Source: a virus
Reading direction: 5' to 3' (one strand)
IMG/VR virus record: IMGVR_UViG_3300046777_000588
Location: 1-62,098 of that record
Length of the DNA: 62,098 bases
Positions 2,554 through 32,087 of the stretch are shown here, piece after piece. The notes beneath the pieces were generated by a model. The model was not told where the DNA came from and searched no databases. It was given only the letters and a program-made list of their open reading frames with translations. The translations under genes and the position numbers were made by a program. Position 1 is the first letter of the stretch; every line of letters starts with the position of its first letter.

Positions 2554-3062
2554 ACTGGAACGAGTATGCGTTAGAGCTTGCAACTGTAGCAGCAAAGAAA
2601 AGCAAAGACCCATGGCGTCAAGTTGGAGCTTGTTTGCTTCGCCATGATAATACAGTGGCAGGGATTGGCTATAACGGCTTTCCCGCTGGTATGCGTGAAG
2701 ATTGGGTGGATAGGGATAAGCGAAGGCTCTACATCGTCCATGCAGAGCAAAATGCTTTGCGTTATGTAAAGCCAGATGAGTGTTCGACGATTGCTGTGAC
2801 ATTGTTGCCGTGCAATGATTGCTTGCGTTCTATTGCATCCTATGGAATCAAGACTGTGATCTATAGAGATATTTATGACAGAGACATCACGAGCATTTCA
2901 CTAGCGCAAGATTTCGGAATAAAGTTAGTGAGGATGCAGGATAAACGATTTTCCTCATATTGGGATCATTCAACAAAGCCGTCGATGTTTGTCGTGAAAG
3001 AAAATGGAGTTGAGATTTATCGTGGAGGGTATACAGAAGGCGAGAAGCTTTTAGGAAAATAA
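2550..3062 (+). CDS. dCMP deaminase
   Basis: Zinc-dependent deaminase that would convert dCMP to dUMP, feeding thymidylate synthesis. The 170-aa protein has the core signature HAEQNAL (H64, catalytic E66) and the second zinc motif LLPCNDC (C88, C91), plus the N-terminal GIGYNGFPAG loop typical of phage and bacterial dCMP deaminases. The C-terminal 35 residues extend beyond the usual domain. It sits with the MazG-like hydrolase; no thymidylate synthase was seen, so the host enzyme would have to use the product. Confidence 0.92.
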   Translation: MNWNEYALELATVAAKKSKDPWRQVGACLLRHDNTVAGIGYNGFPAGMREDWVDRDKRRLYIVHAEQNALRYVKPDECSTIAVTLLPCNDCLRSIASYGIKTVIYRDIYDRDITSISLAQDFGIKLVRMQDKRFSSYWDHSTKPSMFVVKENGVEIYRGGYTEGEKLLGK

Positions 3063-3066
3063 ATAT

Positions 3067-4173
3067 ATGCGGTTCCACATTCTTGGCCTTCCCCATACAG
3101 TAACATCAAAAGAGTTCAATGCCTGTGCATATACTCAGAAGGTTGTAAAGTTTGGCAAGATGATGGTGGAGCGAGGGCATGAAGTGATTCACTACGGTCA
3201 TGAGGATTCGGATTTAATCTGCACGGAGAATGTGCCAGTGTTGACGAATGATGACTTCCAGAAAAGCTATGGTTCGCATGATTGGAGAAAGACATTTTTC
3301 AAGTTCAATATGCAGGATCACGCTTATCAGACCTTTTTCAAGAATGCTATTGAGGAAGTAGGGAAAAGGAAACTGAAGCATGATTTCATTCTGCCTTTCT
3401 GGGGTAGTGGAGTAAGGCCGATTTGTGACGCACATCCTGACATGATTTGCGTTGAGCCGGGCATTGGGTATGCGGGCGGGCATTGGGCAAGGTGGAAAGT
3501 CTGGGAGAGTTACGCGATTTACCATGCTTATTACGGCTTGCAGGCTGTTGGAAATTGTCGGCAAGATTGGTATGATGTTGTGATACCGAATTATTTCGAT
3601 GTAGAAGATTTCGAGTTTAATCCTCACAAAGAAGATTACTTTCTGTATCTAGGCAGGGTTTACAGTGGAAAAGGTGTTGATGTAGCGATTCAGGCAACAG
3701 AGAGGGCAGGGGTGAAGCTAGTCATCGCAGGTCAGAAAGAAGAAGGATACAAATTGCCAGACCATGTGGAATATGTTGGGTATGCTGATGTGGAGAAAAG
3801 AAAGAAGCTAATGGCTAACGCAAAAGCTAGTTTCGTTCCTAGCCAGTATATCGAGCCATTCGGAGGGGTTCAGGTTGAGAATTTGCTGTGTGGAACGCCA
3901 ACGATTACGACAGACTGGGGTAGCTTTACGGAAAATAACCTCCATGGCATCACAGGATTCCGATGCAGGACGATGGGTGACTTTGTGGATGCTATCAATA
4001 ATATTGATGAGATTGACCCGAAAGATTGCAGGAAATGGGGCATGAACTTTAGTCTGGAGAAAGTTGCGCCGATGTATGAGAAATATTTCAGCGATGTGCT
4101 TGATGTCTACGAAGGCAAAGGTTGGTATGCAGAAGGCAATGGCTTGTTTTCCTCAGTAAAGAATTATCCATGA
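3067..4173 (+). CDS. GT4-type glycosyltransferase
   Basis: A GT-B fold retaining transferase that would move a sugar from a nucleotide-sugar donor to an unknown acceptor (host surface, DNA base or virion protein). The C-terminal donor-binding half is clear: FLYLGRVYSGKGVD (about 192-205) and the EX7E motif in EPFGGVQVE (E263, E271), followed by LLCGTPTITTDWG. The N-terminal acceptor half is divergent and starts MRFHILGLPH. It follows the dCMP deaminase by four bases. It is physically separate from the second glycan cluster at 11990-14818, so the two may act on different acceptors. Confidence 0.85.
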   Translation: MRFHILGLPHTVTSKEFNACAYTQKVVKFGKMMVERGHEVIHYGHEDSDLICTENVPVLTNDDFQKSYGSHDWRKTFFKFNMQDHAYQTFFKNAIEEVGKRKLKHDFILPFWGSGVRPICDAHPDMICVEPGIGYAGGHWARWKVWESYAIYHAYYGLQAVGNCRQDWYDVVIPNYFDVEDFEFNPHKEDYFLYLGRVYSGKGVDVAIQATERAGVKLVIAGQKEEGYKLPDHVEYVGYADVEKRKKLMANAKASFVPSQYIEPFGGVQVENLLCGTPTITTDWGSFTENNLHGITGFRCRTMGDFVDAINNIDEIDPKDCRKWGMNFSLEKVAPMYEKYFSDVLDVYEGKGWYAEGNGLFSSVKNYP

Positions 4174-14862: not shown

Positions 14863-15555
14863 TCAGAATGGATTTACTATTTTAGGTTGTCTTATTCCTA
14901 ATTCAATTTTCATTTGTTTTAATCTTTCTTTTTCTTTTCTGCTAATTTCTGGAGGTTTTGTTGCTTTTGCGTATTCACTCAATCCAGATGTAGGCTTTGT
15001 TTTTGCAATCCATTCAAGATGATTTATTTGATCTCTTGTTGCCTTTAAATTTGGAGGGATTGAACAAAATGTATTGATTGTAATTTTCAGTATACCGCAA
15101 GCCATTTTGATTCCATGCCATGATCCATGATTCACTATATTACTAATAAGCATCATTGAAACTAAATGCTTTTTCTTGCTTTTGCTGTTTTGATTCTTTA
15201 CCGCGTCTTCAGTTATTTTTAATATTTGATCCTTATAGTGTGGGAATTTGAGAATTTTGCATTTGATTGCTGAATGAACCAAGTTGTGGCATTGTCTACA
15301 CAAGAATATCATTCTTGACTTTTGTTCTGCATTTGTTCGTAGAAACCTATATTCCATGTGATGAATATCGCTTCCCGTATTGCCGCATTTTTCGCAATTA
15401 CCATCATGGTTTCTTAAAAAAGAATCTCGCAATCTTTTCCACTCTTCTGATTTTAGATATTCATTCCTATACTCGTGACGAGTCATTTTGAACCCGCCAA
15501 TGCCTTTTAACTTTCTTTGTAGTTTTCTGTAGTTTTTAGGATTTAGTTTTTGCAT
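14863..15555 (-). CDS. HNH endonuclease
   Basis: A 230-aa protein with a zinc-supported HNH core: CEKC (C54, C57), DIHH (H65, H66), CRQCH (C86, C89, H90) and LVH (H94). The rest is Lys-rich and may bind DNA. It is the only gene on the minus strand within the rightward unit, and it splits the glycan module from the capsid gene, as free-standing homing endonucleases do. A shorter start at 15486 (MTRHEYRNEY) is possible. Confidence 0.82.
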   Translation of the reverse strand: MQKLNPKNYRKLQRKLKGIGGFKMTRHEYRNEYLKSEEWKRLRDSFLRNHDGNCEKCGNTGSDIHHMEYRFLRTNAEQKSRMIFLCRQCHNLVHSAIKCKILKFPHYKDQILKITEDAVKNQNSKSKKKHLVSMMLISNIVNHGSWHGIKMACGILKITINTFCSIPPNLKATRDQINHLEWIAKTKPTSGLSEYAKATKPPEISRKEKERLKQMKIELGIRQPKIVNPF

Positions 15556-15565
15556 ATAAAAGAAA

Positions 15566-15599
15566 ACCCGCCCTGATGGTCGTAGTCATCAAGACGGGT
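15566..15599. terminator. Strong hairpin beside HNH gene
   Basis: ACCCGCCCTGATG (15566-15578) pairs with CATCAAGACGGGT (15587-15599): 13 positions with two mismatches and an 8-base loop. TCTTTCT follows on the plus strand and TTTTCTTTT on the minus strand, so it could stop transcription both ways and insulate the capsid promoter. Confidence 0.6.
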
Positions 15600-15723
15600 C
15601 TTTCTAGTTGGGGAAATTTTGGATTGATTCTACGACAAATCAATATGTGCATTTACGCTACTTTAGTTTTTGCTTGAGTCAACTTTTTTATTCTCTGTCA
15701 AAAATATTTTCAGAAAAAATGAT

Positions 15724-15750
15724 TTGACGAAATACTAAATATATTATAGC
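15724..15750 (+). promoter_or_regulatory. Candidate capsid promoter
   Basis: TTGACG at 15724-15729 followed after 15 bases by TATAGC (15745-15750) inside a very AT-rich tract. The surrounding TTTGAC word recurs ahead of two fibre genes (22462 and 26842). If used, transcription would begin near 15757 and place the structured segment in the capsid mRNA leader. Confidence 0.35.
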
Positions 15751-15945
15751 AGTTCACACATCGGCGACGAGCTATGCGTTAATGGCAACTCCGTGGTAGT
15801 TTAAGAAACCACATCACAGGCCGCACAATAAGCCCAGCGTGCCGGGGCGAAAAAACAACTTGCAAGCTATCCAGCAATGGATCGCCTCGCACTTGAATTT
15901 CGCCCGAAGTTTTCTAAACGGAGGGTAGTTCAAGCAGAACAAAAC
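15746..15945 (+). ncRNA. Structured RNA candidate, capsid mRNA leader
   Basis: Multiple helices can be drawn: ATAGC/GCTAT (15746-15750 with 15771-15775), a TCG-GCGA-CGA mini-hairpin in its loop, GTGG/CCAC (15793-15812), CCGCAC/GTGC-GG (15821-15845), GGGCGAAA/TTTCGCCC (15845-15852 with 15898-15905) enclosing ATCCA-GCAA-TGGAT (15869-15882), GTTT/AAAC, and GTTC-AAGCA-GAAC (15928-15940). Two helices end in GNRA tetraloops. There is no open frame. I do not recognise a known RNA family; it may be a cis-regulator of the capsid gene or a stable small RNA. Confidence 0.5.
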
Positions 15946-15995
15946 CCAAACACACTCGATTCTCCTCTAGCAGAAATGCAATGGGAATAAAGGTC

Positions 15996-16037
15996 GAGTA
16001 AAACAACAAACAAAACTAAAACTAGAAAACTAATAAT
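15996..16037 (+). promoter_or_regulatory. A/C-rich leader of the capsid gene
   Basis: A run of AAAACAACAAACAAAAC-like sequence with no Shine-Dalgarno precedes the ATG at 16038 (context AACTAATAATATG). The lack of structure contrasts sharply with the folded segment just upstream and would keep the start site open. Confidence 0.45.
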
Positions 16038-17270
16038 ATGCCTACTTGTCAAACTATCCCTTTGAATGCAATTCAAGACTTTGCATCCAAAGATACACTT
16101 CGCATCATCGGTCAGATTGGCCGCGTGCTTGCTCGTAAATCCCCATACATCAACTCGATTGATGGTGGAACTCTCCCCAATGTCTCGGATGTTGTCCGTA
16201 GCGTTGTTGAGGAAATGGCCGTTCCATCTAATGCTGGTGTCAATGGTGCTGGTGCGCTTGCCGCTCCTTTGTTTTTGAATGACACCTCGCTTTGCGGTGC
16301 TGGTGCTACTCCTGATCAAGTTGGTTCGACTGAATACACATTCCAACTCCAGACCCTCCGTGGTGCTGGTCCTCGCGTTTGTGTCAAGCAAGCTCGCACG
16401 GCCTTCAAGGGTTCCTACCTCCAAGCTCAAATTGCGTTGGAAAAGACGATCCTTCAGCTCATCAACGCCGACATCCGCTATCAATACCTGATTCAGTCTG
16501 GCATCAAGTATGTTGTCAATAGCACCAAAACATTCTCTCAGAATCTGACTGGTGATATGCAAGTTCAGGGCGCACCTTGGGCTTCACACCTTCCAGATGC
16601 TCCGATGAACTTCAAGACCCTCTATCGTATCGGAACCTTCCTCCGTGAAGAGATGCTTGCAGAGCCTTTCGCCAGCAAAGATGGCGAGTTCTTCCAAGTT
16701 CTTGCTTCCTCCGACCAGATTGAAAACTTCCGCAACGATGCAGATGTCAAAGAAGACCTCCTGTATCTTTCCGCTGGTAGCTTCAAGCTCGGCGAAGAGA
16801 GCATCAGTGGTTATCAGTTCATGGGTTATCGTGGTTTCGCCTTTGGTATCGACCAACAGCCGCTTCGTGCGACTGGCTTCGATGGCAGCGGTAACCTCGT
16901 TCTCGTGAATCCTATCATTAGTCAAGCTGTTGACACAGGATTTGCTCAACGCCGCAACCCAATCTGGGTTGATGCTCCTTACGAAGTTATGTTCGTCATC
17001 GCTGGTGAAGCCTTCAAGCGTCTCATTCCTGAGCAGTATGTTGGTGAGGGAACCTTCAAGTTCGCTCCTCAACTCGCCATGGGTGAACTTGAGTGGACTT
17101 ACTTCCGTGATAACGATTGCAACCTCTATGGTGATTATGGTCAGCACATCTACCAAATCTCTCGTGCGATTCAGCCGATTCGCCCGCAGAATGTGTGCGC
17201 CATCGTCTACAAGCGTTGTCAGCTTGATGTAAATCCTCTCCCCTGCTCGACCTCTGCTACGGGTCTGTAA
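16038..17270 (+). CDS. Major capsid protein
   Basis: A 410-aa protein whose position after portal and scaffold, isolated transcription context and composition identify it as the main shell subunit. The N-terminus MPTCQTIPLNAIQDFASKD and the central QLQTLRGAGPRVCVKQAR are reminiscent of HK97-fold capsid proteins in podophages. Codon use shifts towards C-ending codons (for example TTC, CTC, ATC) relative to neighbours, as expected for a highly expressed gene. A long leader lies upstream and a strong hairpin downstream, so it may be regulated as its own transcript. Confidence 0.82.
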   Translation: MPTCQTIPLNAIQDFASKDTLRIIGQIGRVLARKSPYINSIDGGTLPNVSDVVRSVVEEMAVPSNAGVNGAGALAAPLFLNDTSLCGAGATPDQVGSTEYTFQLQTLRGAGPRVCVKQARTAFKGSYLQAQIALEKTILQLINADIRYQYLIQSGIKYVVNSTKTFSQNLTGDMQVQGAPWASHLPDAPMNFKTLYRIGTFLREEMLAEPFASKDGEFFQVLASSDQIENFRNDADVKEDLLYLSAGSFKLGEESISGYQFMGYRGFAFGIDQQPLRATGFDGSGNLVLVNPIISQAVDTGFAQRRNPIWVDAPYEVMFVIAGEAFKRLIPEQYVGEGTFKFAPQLAMGELEWTYFRDNDCNLYGDYGQHIYQISRAIQPIRPQNVCAIVYKRCQLDVNPLPCSTSATGL

Positions 17271-17273
17271 TAG

Positions 17274-17329
17274 GTAAGTTGGTATCGGTGGGGGGTGGTC
17301 CGAACCCGCCCCTCACCTAATCAGCTTAC
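17274..17329 (+). terminator. Long hairpin after the capsid gene
   Basis: An outer stem (GTAAG 17274-17278 with CTTAC 17325-17329, extended by weaker pairs) encloses a GC-rich stem of about 12 pairs between GGTGGGGGGTGG and the CCCGCCCCTCACC side, with a short loop. ATTTTAC follows. It fits an intrinsic or attenuating terminator, or a 3-prime stabiliser of abundant capsid mRNA. Confidence 0.6.
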
Positions 17330-17870: not shown

Positions 17871-18659
17871 ATGGCAAATCCCATCATTCGTATTAAACGC
17901 GGTTCTAGCACCCCAGTTAGCTTGTCTTCTGGTGAGTTGGCAATCGACCTGACAAACCTCAACCTCTTCGTTGGTAAAGCTGACGGAACAGCACTCGCCG
18001 TTGGCGGTTCTGGAACTTTCGCTACCAAGAGCTATGCTGATAGTGCAGTCTCGACTGCGAACACTACTCTCTCTGCTGCTATCGCCGCTGAAGAGTCTGC
18101 TCGTATCGCTGCTGATGGCGTTCTGACAACCGATCTTAGCAATGAGATCACTCGCGCTACCGCCGCTGAAGGCGTTATCGCCAGCAATCTTGCAACTGAA
18201 ATCAGCGACCGCACCGCTGCTGTTTCGGCAGAAGCCACTGCTCGCAGCAATGCTGACACCGCCCTCGACGGCAAAATCACCACGGAGAAAAATCGCATCG
18301 ACGCGATCCTTTCCGCTGCTGACGCTGACAAAGACACCTTCGCTGAAATCGTAAGCCTCATCAACAGCGTTGATACTGCTAACGATTCTGCTTTTGCTGG
18401 TTATGTTACTAGCAACAATGCGGCTCTCGCCCAAGAGGTGACTGACCGCACGAATGCAGACACCGCTCTTGGTATTCGCATTGATGGCGTTGAGTCTGAT
18501 GCGACTGCTCTTGAAGCTCGCGTCACTACTGCTGAAGCTGACATTGTTACTAATGCTGGAGCCATTTCTAGCGAAGCGACCACTCGCGCCAATGCTGACT
18601 CGGCTCTTGACACCCGTGTTACTGCTCTCGAAACCACCATCGACGGCGGAGTTTACTAA
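17871..18659 (+). CDS. Tail fibre with Mtd-like head and coiled coil
   Basis: A 262-aa protein. Residues 1-45 (IIRIKRGSSTPVSLSSGELA, then LFVGKADG) resemble the N-terminal domain of phage fibre and Mtd-type proteins. From about 55 to 250 there is a long Ala/Thr/Asp-rich alpha segment with repeats such as ITRATAAEGVI, SDRTAAVSAEATARSNAD and TDRNAD-like turns, the pattern of a trimeric coiled-coil shaft. There is no C-terminal lectin domain, so it may be a shaft or adaptor to which another fibre attaches. A CAA-repeat leader precedes the ATG. Confidence 0.75.
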   Translation: MANPIIRIKRGSSTPVSLSSGELAIDLTNLNLFVGKADGTALAVGGSGTFATKSYADSAVSTANTTLSAAIAAEESARIAADGVLTTDLSNEITRATAAEGVIASNLATEISDRTAAVSAEATARSNADTALDGKITTEKNRIDAILSAADADKDTFAEIVSLINSVDTANDSAFAGYVTSNNAALAQEVTDRTNADTALGIRIDGVESDATALEARVTTAEADIVTNAGAISSEATTRANADSALDTRVTALETTIDGGVY

Positions 18660-29812: not shown

Positions 29813-31810
29813 ATGAGCGCAAACATTAAAGCATCAGTAGACGGAACACAGGCAATCATCGGGGTAGGTGGTGTAGACCAGATGACTGTGAGCAACGCTG
29901 GCGTAGTCACGGCAAATAGCTTTGTAGGCAATGTAACTGGAGGAGACATCTCTGGTAACGCATCAAGTGCTACGGCTATTGCAACTGGATCAACTGGAGT
30001 ATCCGCAGGATCATTCGTTGTTGGACAGCAATACAAAATTACTTCTCTTGGAACAACGACACAAGCGCAATGGAATACAATTGCTGGAACAACAGGACAA
30101 ACTTATGTAGTTGGGTCTTTGTTCACGGCAGCTACTACTGGAGCAAGTTCTGGAAATGGATCGGCAGCAGTAGCAAGGACATTGGCAAATCGCTTCGCTG
30201 ATGTAGTGAATGTAAAAGATTTTGGCGCGGTTGGAGATGGGGTTGCGGATGATACTGCTGCGATTCAAGCCGCGATTAATACTGGGAAATCTATTGTTTT
30301 TCCAGAAGGAATATACATTGTTTCATCCCTTAACATTAATTCAAAAACAAAATTATTTGGCTTGGGTACACTCAAGAAAACAACCGTAACTGGGACATCA
30401 ATTTTAAATATTGCATCAAACGATGTAGAAATTGATGGACTTACATTTTTGGGTGCTAGTGTTGATACATTGATTCCGACAACTAATGACGCAGACAACG
30501 CAATTACTATTTCTGGAACATCAACTCCAACTCAATTTCAAAACATAAAAATCCAAAATTGCACTATTAACGGAGTAGCTGGTTTTGGTGTTAGAGTTAA
30601 CTATGCAACAAATGTTTGGGTTTTGAACAATAACATTTCTTACTGCGGATATGCTGGTATTCTTTTGTTATCTGTAATTCATGGAATTGTTGATGGAAAT
30701 AGAGTAAGAAATATTGACTCTTCTGCTAGTGCAACTAATAATTGGTATGGAATCTCCATTACAAGAGATGCGACTAAAACAATAGCAAATTCTGCAAGAT
30801 CAACAAATTGTGTGATTACAAATAATGTAGTTTCCAATGTTACGAAATGGACAGGCATTGACATCCATGCAGGATATAAAAGCATTATTGACAGCAATCA
30901 AGTATACTATTGCAAAAAGGGAATGTATGCACAATATGATGATGCTACAGAAACAAACAGACAACCATCAGAAACAATTGTCTTTTCAAACAACATTGTA
31001 GAAGGTAATCTTGCGGCAGCAGACTCATCTTTGGGTATTGCATCGCTAGGTCTAGCAGGAATGCCTAACCTAGATATAACAATTACTGGCAATCAAATTA
31101 TTAGAGGCGGAGGTTATGCGTCGAGCAATGGCGGTTTGTATGTTACAGAAACTAAAACCTGCATTGCATCAAACAACATCATAAAAAATAGCTGGCGATC
31201 TGGCATTTCTATTGGAGCAAACTGTGATGACATTGTTTTTGAAAATAATAAAATTAATGGTATACAACCAGATGGATCAGGATTAAGCACATATTATTGT
31301 TATTTTCCAAGCACTACTGTCACAAATACTGTATTGAGAAATAATTATTTCTTAAACAATACTGGAGTATCAGCAAATACTCCAACATATGGAATATTAT
31401 ATTTTGCTGGAACATATACTGGAATAACATTAGATAGAAATAGAATGAATGAATTCCCAACAGTTTCATTTTTATTTAACGCATTAAATTCCAATCGTTA
31501 TCAAGATTTTAAATTTATTCTTGAACCAACATCACAATATGCATCATTGAATGTAACTTCAGCAAATACGACAGAAGTAACAAGCGTCACGATTGGTAGA
31601 AATGTATATGGAACTCAACTTACTGCTACATTAATATATAATGTAAATAGAACTACAGTAACAAATCCAAAAATATTTGCCTGCATTACTGGACAAGCAG
31701 CACTAAATACCTATCAAGTAACTGCATATACATCAGACGCAACAACATTTGGTGTTACTGGAACTATACCAGTAACTTTAACAGTTCAAGGAATATGTTG
31801 GACAGAATAA
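29813..31810 (+). CDS. Tailspike, pectate-lyase fold (copy 2)
   Basis: A 665-aa protein: an N-terminal beta domain with VSNAGVVTANSFVGNVTGG, an inserted SFVVGQQYKITSLGTTTQAQ module, then NVKDFGAVGDGVADDTAAIQ (about 133-152) and a right-handed beta-helix. The Pectate_lyase_3 start is textbook. Relative to copy 1 it carries an extra N-terminal module, so the two spikes may stack or attach at different points. Confidence 0.87.
   Translation: MSANIKASVDGTQAIIGVGGVDQMTVSNAGVVTANSFVGNVTGGDISGNASSATAIATGSTGVSAGSFVVGQQYKITSLGTTTQAQWNTIAGTTGQTYVVGSLFTAATTGASSGNGSAAVARTLANRFADVVNVKDFGAVGDGVADDTAAIQAAINTGKSIVFPEGIYIVSSLNINSKTKLFGLGTLKKTTVTGTSILNIASNDVEIDGLTFLGASVDTLIPTTNDADNAITISGTSTPTQFQNIKIQNCTINGVAGFGVRVNYATNVWVLNNNISYCGYAGILLLSVIHGIVDGNRVRNIDSSASATNNWYGISITRDATKTIANSARSTNCVITNNVVSNVTKWTGIDIHAGYKSIIDSNQVYYCKKGMYAQYDDATETNRQPSETIVFSNNIVEGNLAAADSSLGIASLGLAGMPNLDITITGNQIIRGGGYASSNGGLYVTETKTCIASNNIIKNSWRSGISIGANCDDIVFENNKINGIQPDGSGLSTYYCYFPSTTVTNTVLRNNYFLNNTGVSANTPTYGILYFAGTYTGITLDRNRMNEFPTVSFLFNALNSNRYQDFKFILEPTSQYASLNVTSANTTEVTSVTIGRNVYGTQLTATLIYNVNRTTVTNPKIFACITGQAALNTYQVTAYTSDATTFGVTGTIPVTLTVQGICWTE
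29927..29958 (+). repeat. 32-bp direct repeat, tailspike anchor copy 2
   Basis: Identical to 27686-27717; see the tailspike entries. Confidence 0.9.
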
Positions 31811-31829
31811 TATATTAGAAAACAAAATT

Positions 31830-32087
31830 ATGGCACTACAATTAACAACAACTACACCGCAAGGATTCACGGCAACTGATGCTTATCATCGTGTTGAGAA
31901 TATTAGTCTACATAATAAAAATTCTATTGTCTTCTCAATATCAAGCTATAAAGATAATCTGCATACTAATTTATTTAAGTCTGAAATAAAACACTGCGAC
32001 TACGACCTCAACGGAGAAAACCCGATTAAACAAGCATATCTCCATCTAAAAACCTTGCCAGATTTCGCAGACGCAGTAGATTGCTAA
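31830..32087 (+). CDS. Small tailspike-linked protein (copy 2)
   Basis: An 85-aa paralogue of the gene at 29549. Amino acids 1-30 and the last 25 are nearly identical while the centre differs, and the DNA of the first 80 bases is highly similar, so the duplication looks fairly recent. Confidence 0.72.
   Translation: MALQLTTTTPQGFTATDAYHRVENISLHNKNSIVFSISSYKDNLHTNLFKSEIKHCDYDLNGENPIKQAYLHLKTLPDFADAVDC

Follow-up and report, generated by a model that had tools for sequence, protein, structure and literature searches.

A family of pseudoknotted RNAs before the putative major capsid gene of uncultivated tailed phages, and its probable role as a translational switch

Introduction

What does a GC-rich, apparently non-coding segment do when it sits directly before the gene that probably encodes the main shell protein of a virus? 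The question is raised by a 62,098-nucleotide stretch of DNA (hereafter the window) from an uncultivated tailed phage, in which a 200-bp segment (15746–15945) is flanked by a − strand gene for an HNH endonuclease and a gene for a 410-aa protein (16038–17270, + strand). The GC content of the segment is 49.5%, compared with 27.4% upstream, 33.7% downstream and 42.7% genome-wide, and no + strand open reading frame of at least 60 aa overlaps it. Both properties had been noticed in an initial annotation made from this one sequence, which proposed a structured RNA acting as a capsid-translation switch, a processed stable RNA or a packaging/assembly RNA. The intergenic gap (15556–16037) is large, as stated there, but is not clearly one of the two largest in the genome.

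The HNH gene lies directly upstream at 14863–15555 (− strand), and a strong terminator-like hairpin adjoins it at 15563–15602. An HNH gene is also found upstream in one relative (L002), and most other loci checked have none.

Results

The element accompanies a putative capsid gene in a group of uncultivated phages

Neither Pfam nor PHROG contains a match to the 410-aa protein. Its AlphaFold model is of low confidence (pLDDT 46.5), and the 22 best PDB matches of the model are all capsid entries from tailed phages or phage satellites, with E values of at least 0.05. The gene is extremely conserved and sits among terminase-like and virion genes. Position, conservation and these weak-E-value fold matches to a predicted model agree, and 16038–17270 is likely the major capsid gene. 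Just past its stop codon, a GC-rich imperfect inverted repeat without a clear U tract was found by eye at 17286–17322, possibly a processing site or an mRNA 3′ stabiliser. Further downstream, 17871–18659 gives a weak, sub-cut-off Pfam match to Mtd_N, the N-terminal domain of the major tropism determinant.

About 150–160 relatives of the 410-aa protein are present in IMG/VR. No cultured relative was detected among 50,697 phage records by blastn with the leader or tblastn with the capsid and terminase proteins, and a capsid-alignment scan of GTDB genomes gave no relative either. In the first set of homologous loci examined, the element was located upstream of the capsid gene in 81 of 81, 79 by a covariance model trained on 18 leaders and two (L036 and L043) by an iterated nucleotide profile HMM (nhmmer). 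A scan with an RNA pattern that ignored the capsid gene returned 48 contigs. Every contig confirmed as carrying the element had a capsid gene downstream, except one truncated at the contig end, and the four contigs without a model or profile match lacked the capsid gene too; this RNA-only scan thus found no element away from a capsid gene. Altogether, 98 distinct versions of the element were gathered for comparison. The capsid proteins are 77–90% identical to the reference member and the leader sequence diverges, a regime well suited to covariation analysis.

The segment originally delimited is nearly the entire 5′ leader of the capsid gene, but its boundaries shift on comparison: the element extends from about 15758 to 15955, and a pairing partner reaches 16031. 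The view that it belongs to no known RNA family held up, since a search of the window and nine relatives against Rfam 15 gave no match at gathering scores and, at E≤10, chance models only. A protein-coding stretch was rejected given the missing + strand frame of at least 60 aa, indels of any length and the covariation of stems described below. A group I intron or another HNH-linked RNA was likewise rejected because the element occurs with differing upstream genes, most of those listed being non-HNH, and has no Rfam match.

A conserved promoter pattern predicts that the element starts the capsid mRNA

A sigma-70-type promoter precedes the element on the + strand (15724–15752), with a −35 hexamer TTGACG (15724–15729), a 17-nt spacer and a −10 hexamer TAGCAG (15747–15752). 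A TTGACA-like hexamer and the 17-nt spacing recur at the same place in nearly all 98 distinct elements, and the −10 hexamers of the relatives mostly begin with TA. A generic promoter scan did not list this promoter because the −10 hexamer of the window is weak. From the promoter pattern, transcription is predicted to start at 15758–15760, about 4 nt before the structure. The element would therefore be a 5′ UTR, with the RNA beginning at the first pseudoknot.

The sigma-70-like promoter is present although the start regions of the phage are A/T-rich (AATAAATAATATG) and almost devoid of Shine-Dalgarno sequences, which are missing from nearly all of its genes. No intrinsic terminator was found on the + strand between 15600 and 16037. 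A transcriptional attenuator was rejected, there being no + strand terminator in the leader. With neither a Shine-Dalgarno site nor a terminator, access to the start site is the natural reading of any control exerted by the leader.

Two pseudoknots, a hairpin and a long-range stem are established by covariation

The proposed 5′ domain (+ strand) is a row of compact knots followed by a long stem. PK1 (15758–15786) contains hairpin P1 (15771–15775/15782–15786) and a possible helix P0 between the P1 loop and the 5′ end, in the window ACG 15767–15769 with CGU 15777–15779. PK2 (15787–15812) is an H-type pseudoknot with stems S1 (15787–15790/15798–15801) and S2 (15793–15797/15808–15812). PK3 (15819–15848) is a second H-type pseudoknot, with S1 at 15819–15823/15838–15843, including one bulge, and S2 at 15832–15835/15845–15848. 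P4 (15845–15905) is the 8-bp long-range stem GGGCGAAA/TTTCGCCC (15845–15852/15898–15905) drawn in the initial annotation, and it closes a variable arm that carries a GCAA hairpin (15870–15881).

Covariation was assessed against a phylogenetic null (FastTree tree, parsimony-matched substitutions) and by swap tests with 254 unrelated segment pairs as controls, of which the largest z was 3.6; relatedness is only partly corrected for in the swap tests. A fast alignment (A1) was left out, as the groups were misaligned with one another over its 3′ half. In alignment A2, a standard pair count found 91% of cells paired, a value reached by 0 of 500 shuffles, compared with 33–42% for slid controls. Eight pairs were significant against the phylogenetic null, and all eight are Watson-Crick pairs of the proposed helices. 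Five of them fall in P1 (helix z 22.6; swap z 16.3). The two stems of PK2 covary independently, with helix z of 6.0 and 9.9 and swap z of 8.8 and 15.0. For PK3, S1 has a helix z of 6.2, and compensatory changes give S2 at least eight versions, including GCCC:GGGC, CUUCC:GGAAG, GCUAG:CUAGC, GCACC:GGUGC and GCUCA:UGAGC, a result above all 2000 swaps (swap z 7.8). P4 has a core that covaries beyond the phylogenetic null (helix z 4.4, and 7.7 within the window's group; swap z 9.5). The main helices contain 129 G-U pairs compared with 70 A-C mismatches, which is what a + strand RNA should show.

The stems of PK2 cross each other, as do those of PK3, and all four covary; both are therefore real H-type pseudoknots. 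On this comparative evidence PK2 and PK3 are proven, and so are hairpin P1 and the long-range stem P4. P0 is complementary in several versions without reaching significance, and PK1 is likely a third pseudoknot. P5 is conserved or paired without clear covariation. The prediction of a structured RNA in the capsid leader is thereby strongly borne out, while the simple helices first drawn give way to a pseudoknotted architecture. Of the two GNRA tetraloops proposed, GCGA corresponds to no conserved hairpin, its bases being placed by comparison in the 5′ pseudoknot region; the GCAA loop exists, but as part of the variable arm rather than as a conserved motif.

Folding energies point the same way once the whole leader is considered. 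From the predicted start to the AUG (15758–16040), the folding z is −4.31 and none of 200 shuffles is as good, whereas the 200-bp segment alone gives −1.65, with 14 of 200 shuffles as good. The weak value of the short segment arises because nested folding is blind to pseudoknots and because the 3′ pairing partner is cut off. Taken together, the comparative data identify the element as a real and new structured RNA family.

The 3′ part can pair with the capsid start region

Downstream of P4, hairpin P7 (15903–15925) pairs CCC 15903–15905 with GGG 15923–15925 and, inside, GUUU 15909–15912 with AAAC 15916–15919. Within it lies an anti-start sequence, AGUUUUCUA (15908–15916), which is a perfect 9-nt complement of UAGAAAACU (16023–16031). 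The resulting helix, P10, spans about −15 to −7 and ends 6 nt before the capsid AUG. The word AGTTTTCTA occurs in the window only at these two sites, one per strand. The pairing is kept in relatives with different letters, with UUUUUCUUG:CAAGAAAAA and GUUUUAGG:CCUAAAAU as replacement versions; two further versions, AGUUUUUAA:UUAAAAACU and GGUCUCG:CGAGAUC, both occur before an inserted gene (see below). When start regions were exchanged between phages, the observed value of 14.06 exceeded the 11.99±0.29 of the swaps, with relatedness only partly corrected for (z 6.8, compared with a maximum of 3.6 in the 254 controls), and after removal of the majority motif 0 of 2000 swaps reached the observed value.

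RNAfold predicts P10 at 0.90–0.99 in the window leader. In nested folding, pairing of P7 to the start exceeds 0.5 in 51 of 95 relatives and is not above 0.5 in the other 44. The helix is AU-rich and moderately stable, about −7.7 kcal/mol alone. In a second clade, represented by L045, the anti-start sequence appears to be GGUUG, on the 3′ side of P7, pairing with CAACC just before the AUG.

A further helix, P9 (15923–15947), pairs GGGU 15923–15926 with ACCC 15944–15947 and encloses P8 (15928–15931/15937–15940), which is conserved and predicted at 0.995 with little covariation. P9 excludes the outer pairing of P7, and both of these mutually exclusive pairings covary: the outer P7 pairing has a helix z of 3.3 and a swap z of 3.7–3.8, barely over the largest control (3.6), and P9 has a swap z of 5.7 (0 of 500), compared with 0.7 for an unrelated control pair when P9 was set beside outer P7 (3.7). 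Since P10 and P9 exclude P7, the 3′ part can adopt two states.

The A/C-rich start region, first taken to be unstructured, thus contributes one strand, the 3′ one, to a conserved long-range helix. It also contains an extra hairpin in the window phage (15954–15999, arms ACTCGA/TCGAGT), which leaves P10 unaffected, and an extra stretch at this position is found in two near relatives, L001 and L230. Part of the complementarity in P10 may reflect a common start motif, as both start regions of some insertion loci complement P7 and the gene at 31830 has a similar start motif. The start-region word UAGAAAAC (16023–16037) is repeated at 31808–31829, equally far ahead of the gene at 31830, where it could be a target for pairing in trans with the P7 loop or a general start motif.

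These data bear on the alternative that the element is a processed stable RNA, a packaging/assembly RNA or an antitermination element that merely happens to precede the capsid gene. Such an RNA might well have its own promoter and a compact, highly structured domain, and be transcribed just ahead of a long run of structural genes, as this one is. A stand-alone RNA would not be expected always to lead the next gene, however, and the element was never found apart from the capsid gene, its P10 pairing with the start region of that gene covaries, and Rfam matches to known stable or packaging RNAs are absent. We regard this alternative as very improbable. Among the three roles first proposed, the conserved and covarying start-site pairing favours a capsid-translation switch.

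The element stays at the operon head when a gene is inserted

In about 16 phages, a gene of ∼325 aa with an FGE-sulfatase domain (PF03781) lies between the element and the capsid gene, as at L041:1951–2934, L070:1973–2950, L002:2198–2953 and L026:1977–2939. The encoded proteins have a signal-peptide-like start, and their AUG is directly behind the element. The insertion falls behind the element, which thus still leads the operon. Complementarity to P7 is found in the start region of the inserted gene in L041, L053, L055, L063, L145 and L146, and also in that of the capsid gene itself in L002, L026, L057 and L145. In L035, L044, L047 and L065 (about 2818–3001), the capsid protein has an N-terminal extension of ∼40–55 residues, rich in Ser, Thr, Gly and Asn, directly behind the element.

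That operons with inserted genes still begin with the element, and that the predicted start site is about 4 nt from the structure, would also fit an mRNA stabiliser that protects a long-lived capsid message from 5′-end-dependent decay. In E. coli leaders a simple stem suffices as a 5′ protective structure. A protective cap calls for no covarying contact with the start region and no series of elaborate pseudoknots, and we consider this explanation unlikely.

Discussion

The element is probably a new class of cis-acting translational switch, or operator, for the capsid operon. The capsid mRNA, transcribed from its own sigma-70 promoter, would open with the PK1–PK2–PK3 row, followed by the long P4 stem. 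In a closed state, 15908–15916 would pair with the nine bases that end 6 nt before the AUG, forming P10 together with P9, and this state would be expected to hinder loading of the 30S subunit in a phage without Shine-Dalgarno sites. In an open state, the same bases would fold into the local P7 and release the start region. We infer that P10 represses and that the upstream domain is a sensor. The pseudoknotted domain would most likely tip the balance through a trans-acting factor or the order of cotranscriptional folding. The first candidate factor is the capsid protein itself, in autogenous control, by analogy with T4 gp32 and the ribosomal protein operators; a pseudoknotted 5′ UTR and a pairing to the start region are the features that match an operator of the gp32 or S15/S4 type.

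The same parts could be arranged for activation, with the pseudoknots recruiting or positioning the ribosome, for example via S1, and P10 docking, rather than hiding, the start region in a leader that acts as a translational enhancer for a highly expressed gene. Nearly all genes of the phage lack a Shine-Dalgarno sequence, the start region is AU-rich, the element always precedes whichever gene comes first, and an affinity of S1 for pseudoknots and AU-rich sites has been described (PMC10931766). However, a 9-bp helix over about −15 to −7 that competes with a local hairpin resembles occlusion, and many other genes of the phage manage without such a leader; positive action of this kind seems improbable. 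A riboswitch proper, with the pseudoknot domain as receptor for an ion or small molecule and a P7/P9/P10 platform as the readout, would account for the aptamer-like domain and the mutually exclusive expression-platform pairings, of which outer P7 is weakly above controls. Few bases are invariant (6 invariant columns in A1), which argues for a protein- or folding-based signal over a small molecule; there is also no Rfam riboswitch match and no metabolic gene context, and little weight indeed can be given to this possibility.

The translational switch proposed here has partial parallels. The gene 32 operator of T4 and RB69, a pseudoknot of ∼28 nt with a Shine-Dalgarno site through which the single-strand-binding protein represses its own synthesis, likewise places a phage mRNA pseudoknot upstream of an AU-rich initiation region (PMC535899). 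Autogenous repression is known for gene 32 (PMC535899), whereas its counterpart in the capsid leader is a candidate by analogy. Unlike gene 32, the element has two proven pseudoknots and a likely third, includes a long stem, pairs explicitly against the start region and serves a capsid gene. The rpsO (S15) and alpha operon (S4) operators are also pseudoknotted 5′ UTRs upstream of the gene or operon that they control, the E. coli rpsO knot enclosing the Shine-Dalgarno sequence and start codon, but they belong to cellular genes with known protein ligands, while the element has no Rfam match (PMC10931766). The cyanophage manA and wcaG motifs were likewise recognised by comparative genomics, mostly in marine metagenomes and phages, as presumed 5′ UTRs, but of metabolic, exopolysaccharide or light-induced genes rather than capsid genes (PMC2864571). 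Neither motif was matched by Rfam search in the window and nine relatives, and no Rfam match linked the element to GOLLD or ROOL. These last two are stand-alone RNAs, several times larger than the element, with no leader function. Like the element, they are intricately structured RNAs, found in phages and mobile elements, and first became known through comparative genomics (PMC12286853). Among open-licence papers, no report of a structured RNA before the capsid gene of a dsDNA phage was found.

A fuller account, which we put forward tentatively and hold to be possible rather than probable, is that the tandem pseudoknots sense a signal related to assembly, perhaps some virion factor such as free capsid protein, and switch the anti-start helix on or off. 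Capsid synthesis would thereby be matched to assembly in a dsDNA phage, and insertion of a new gene for a virion or surface protein downstream of the switch would leave it in place.

As a side observation on the phage itself, the glycosyltransferase encoded at 3067–4173 of the window is ∼75% identical to proteins of Synechococcus phages (S-CAM7, ACG-2014f), which makes horizontal transfer within aquatic phages likely.

Promoters and gene order are the usual explanation for how much capsid protein a tailed phage makes. An RNA switch on the capsid message, if true, would add a layer of RNA control at the heart of virion assembly, and one common to a group of uncultivated phages (∼160 loci) without a cultured-phage or Rfam relative. 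For structural studies the element is of use as a compact RNA with multiple pseudoknots, and it can also serve to mark an aquatic phage family that has so far gone unrecognised.
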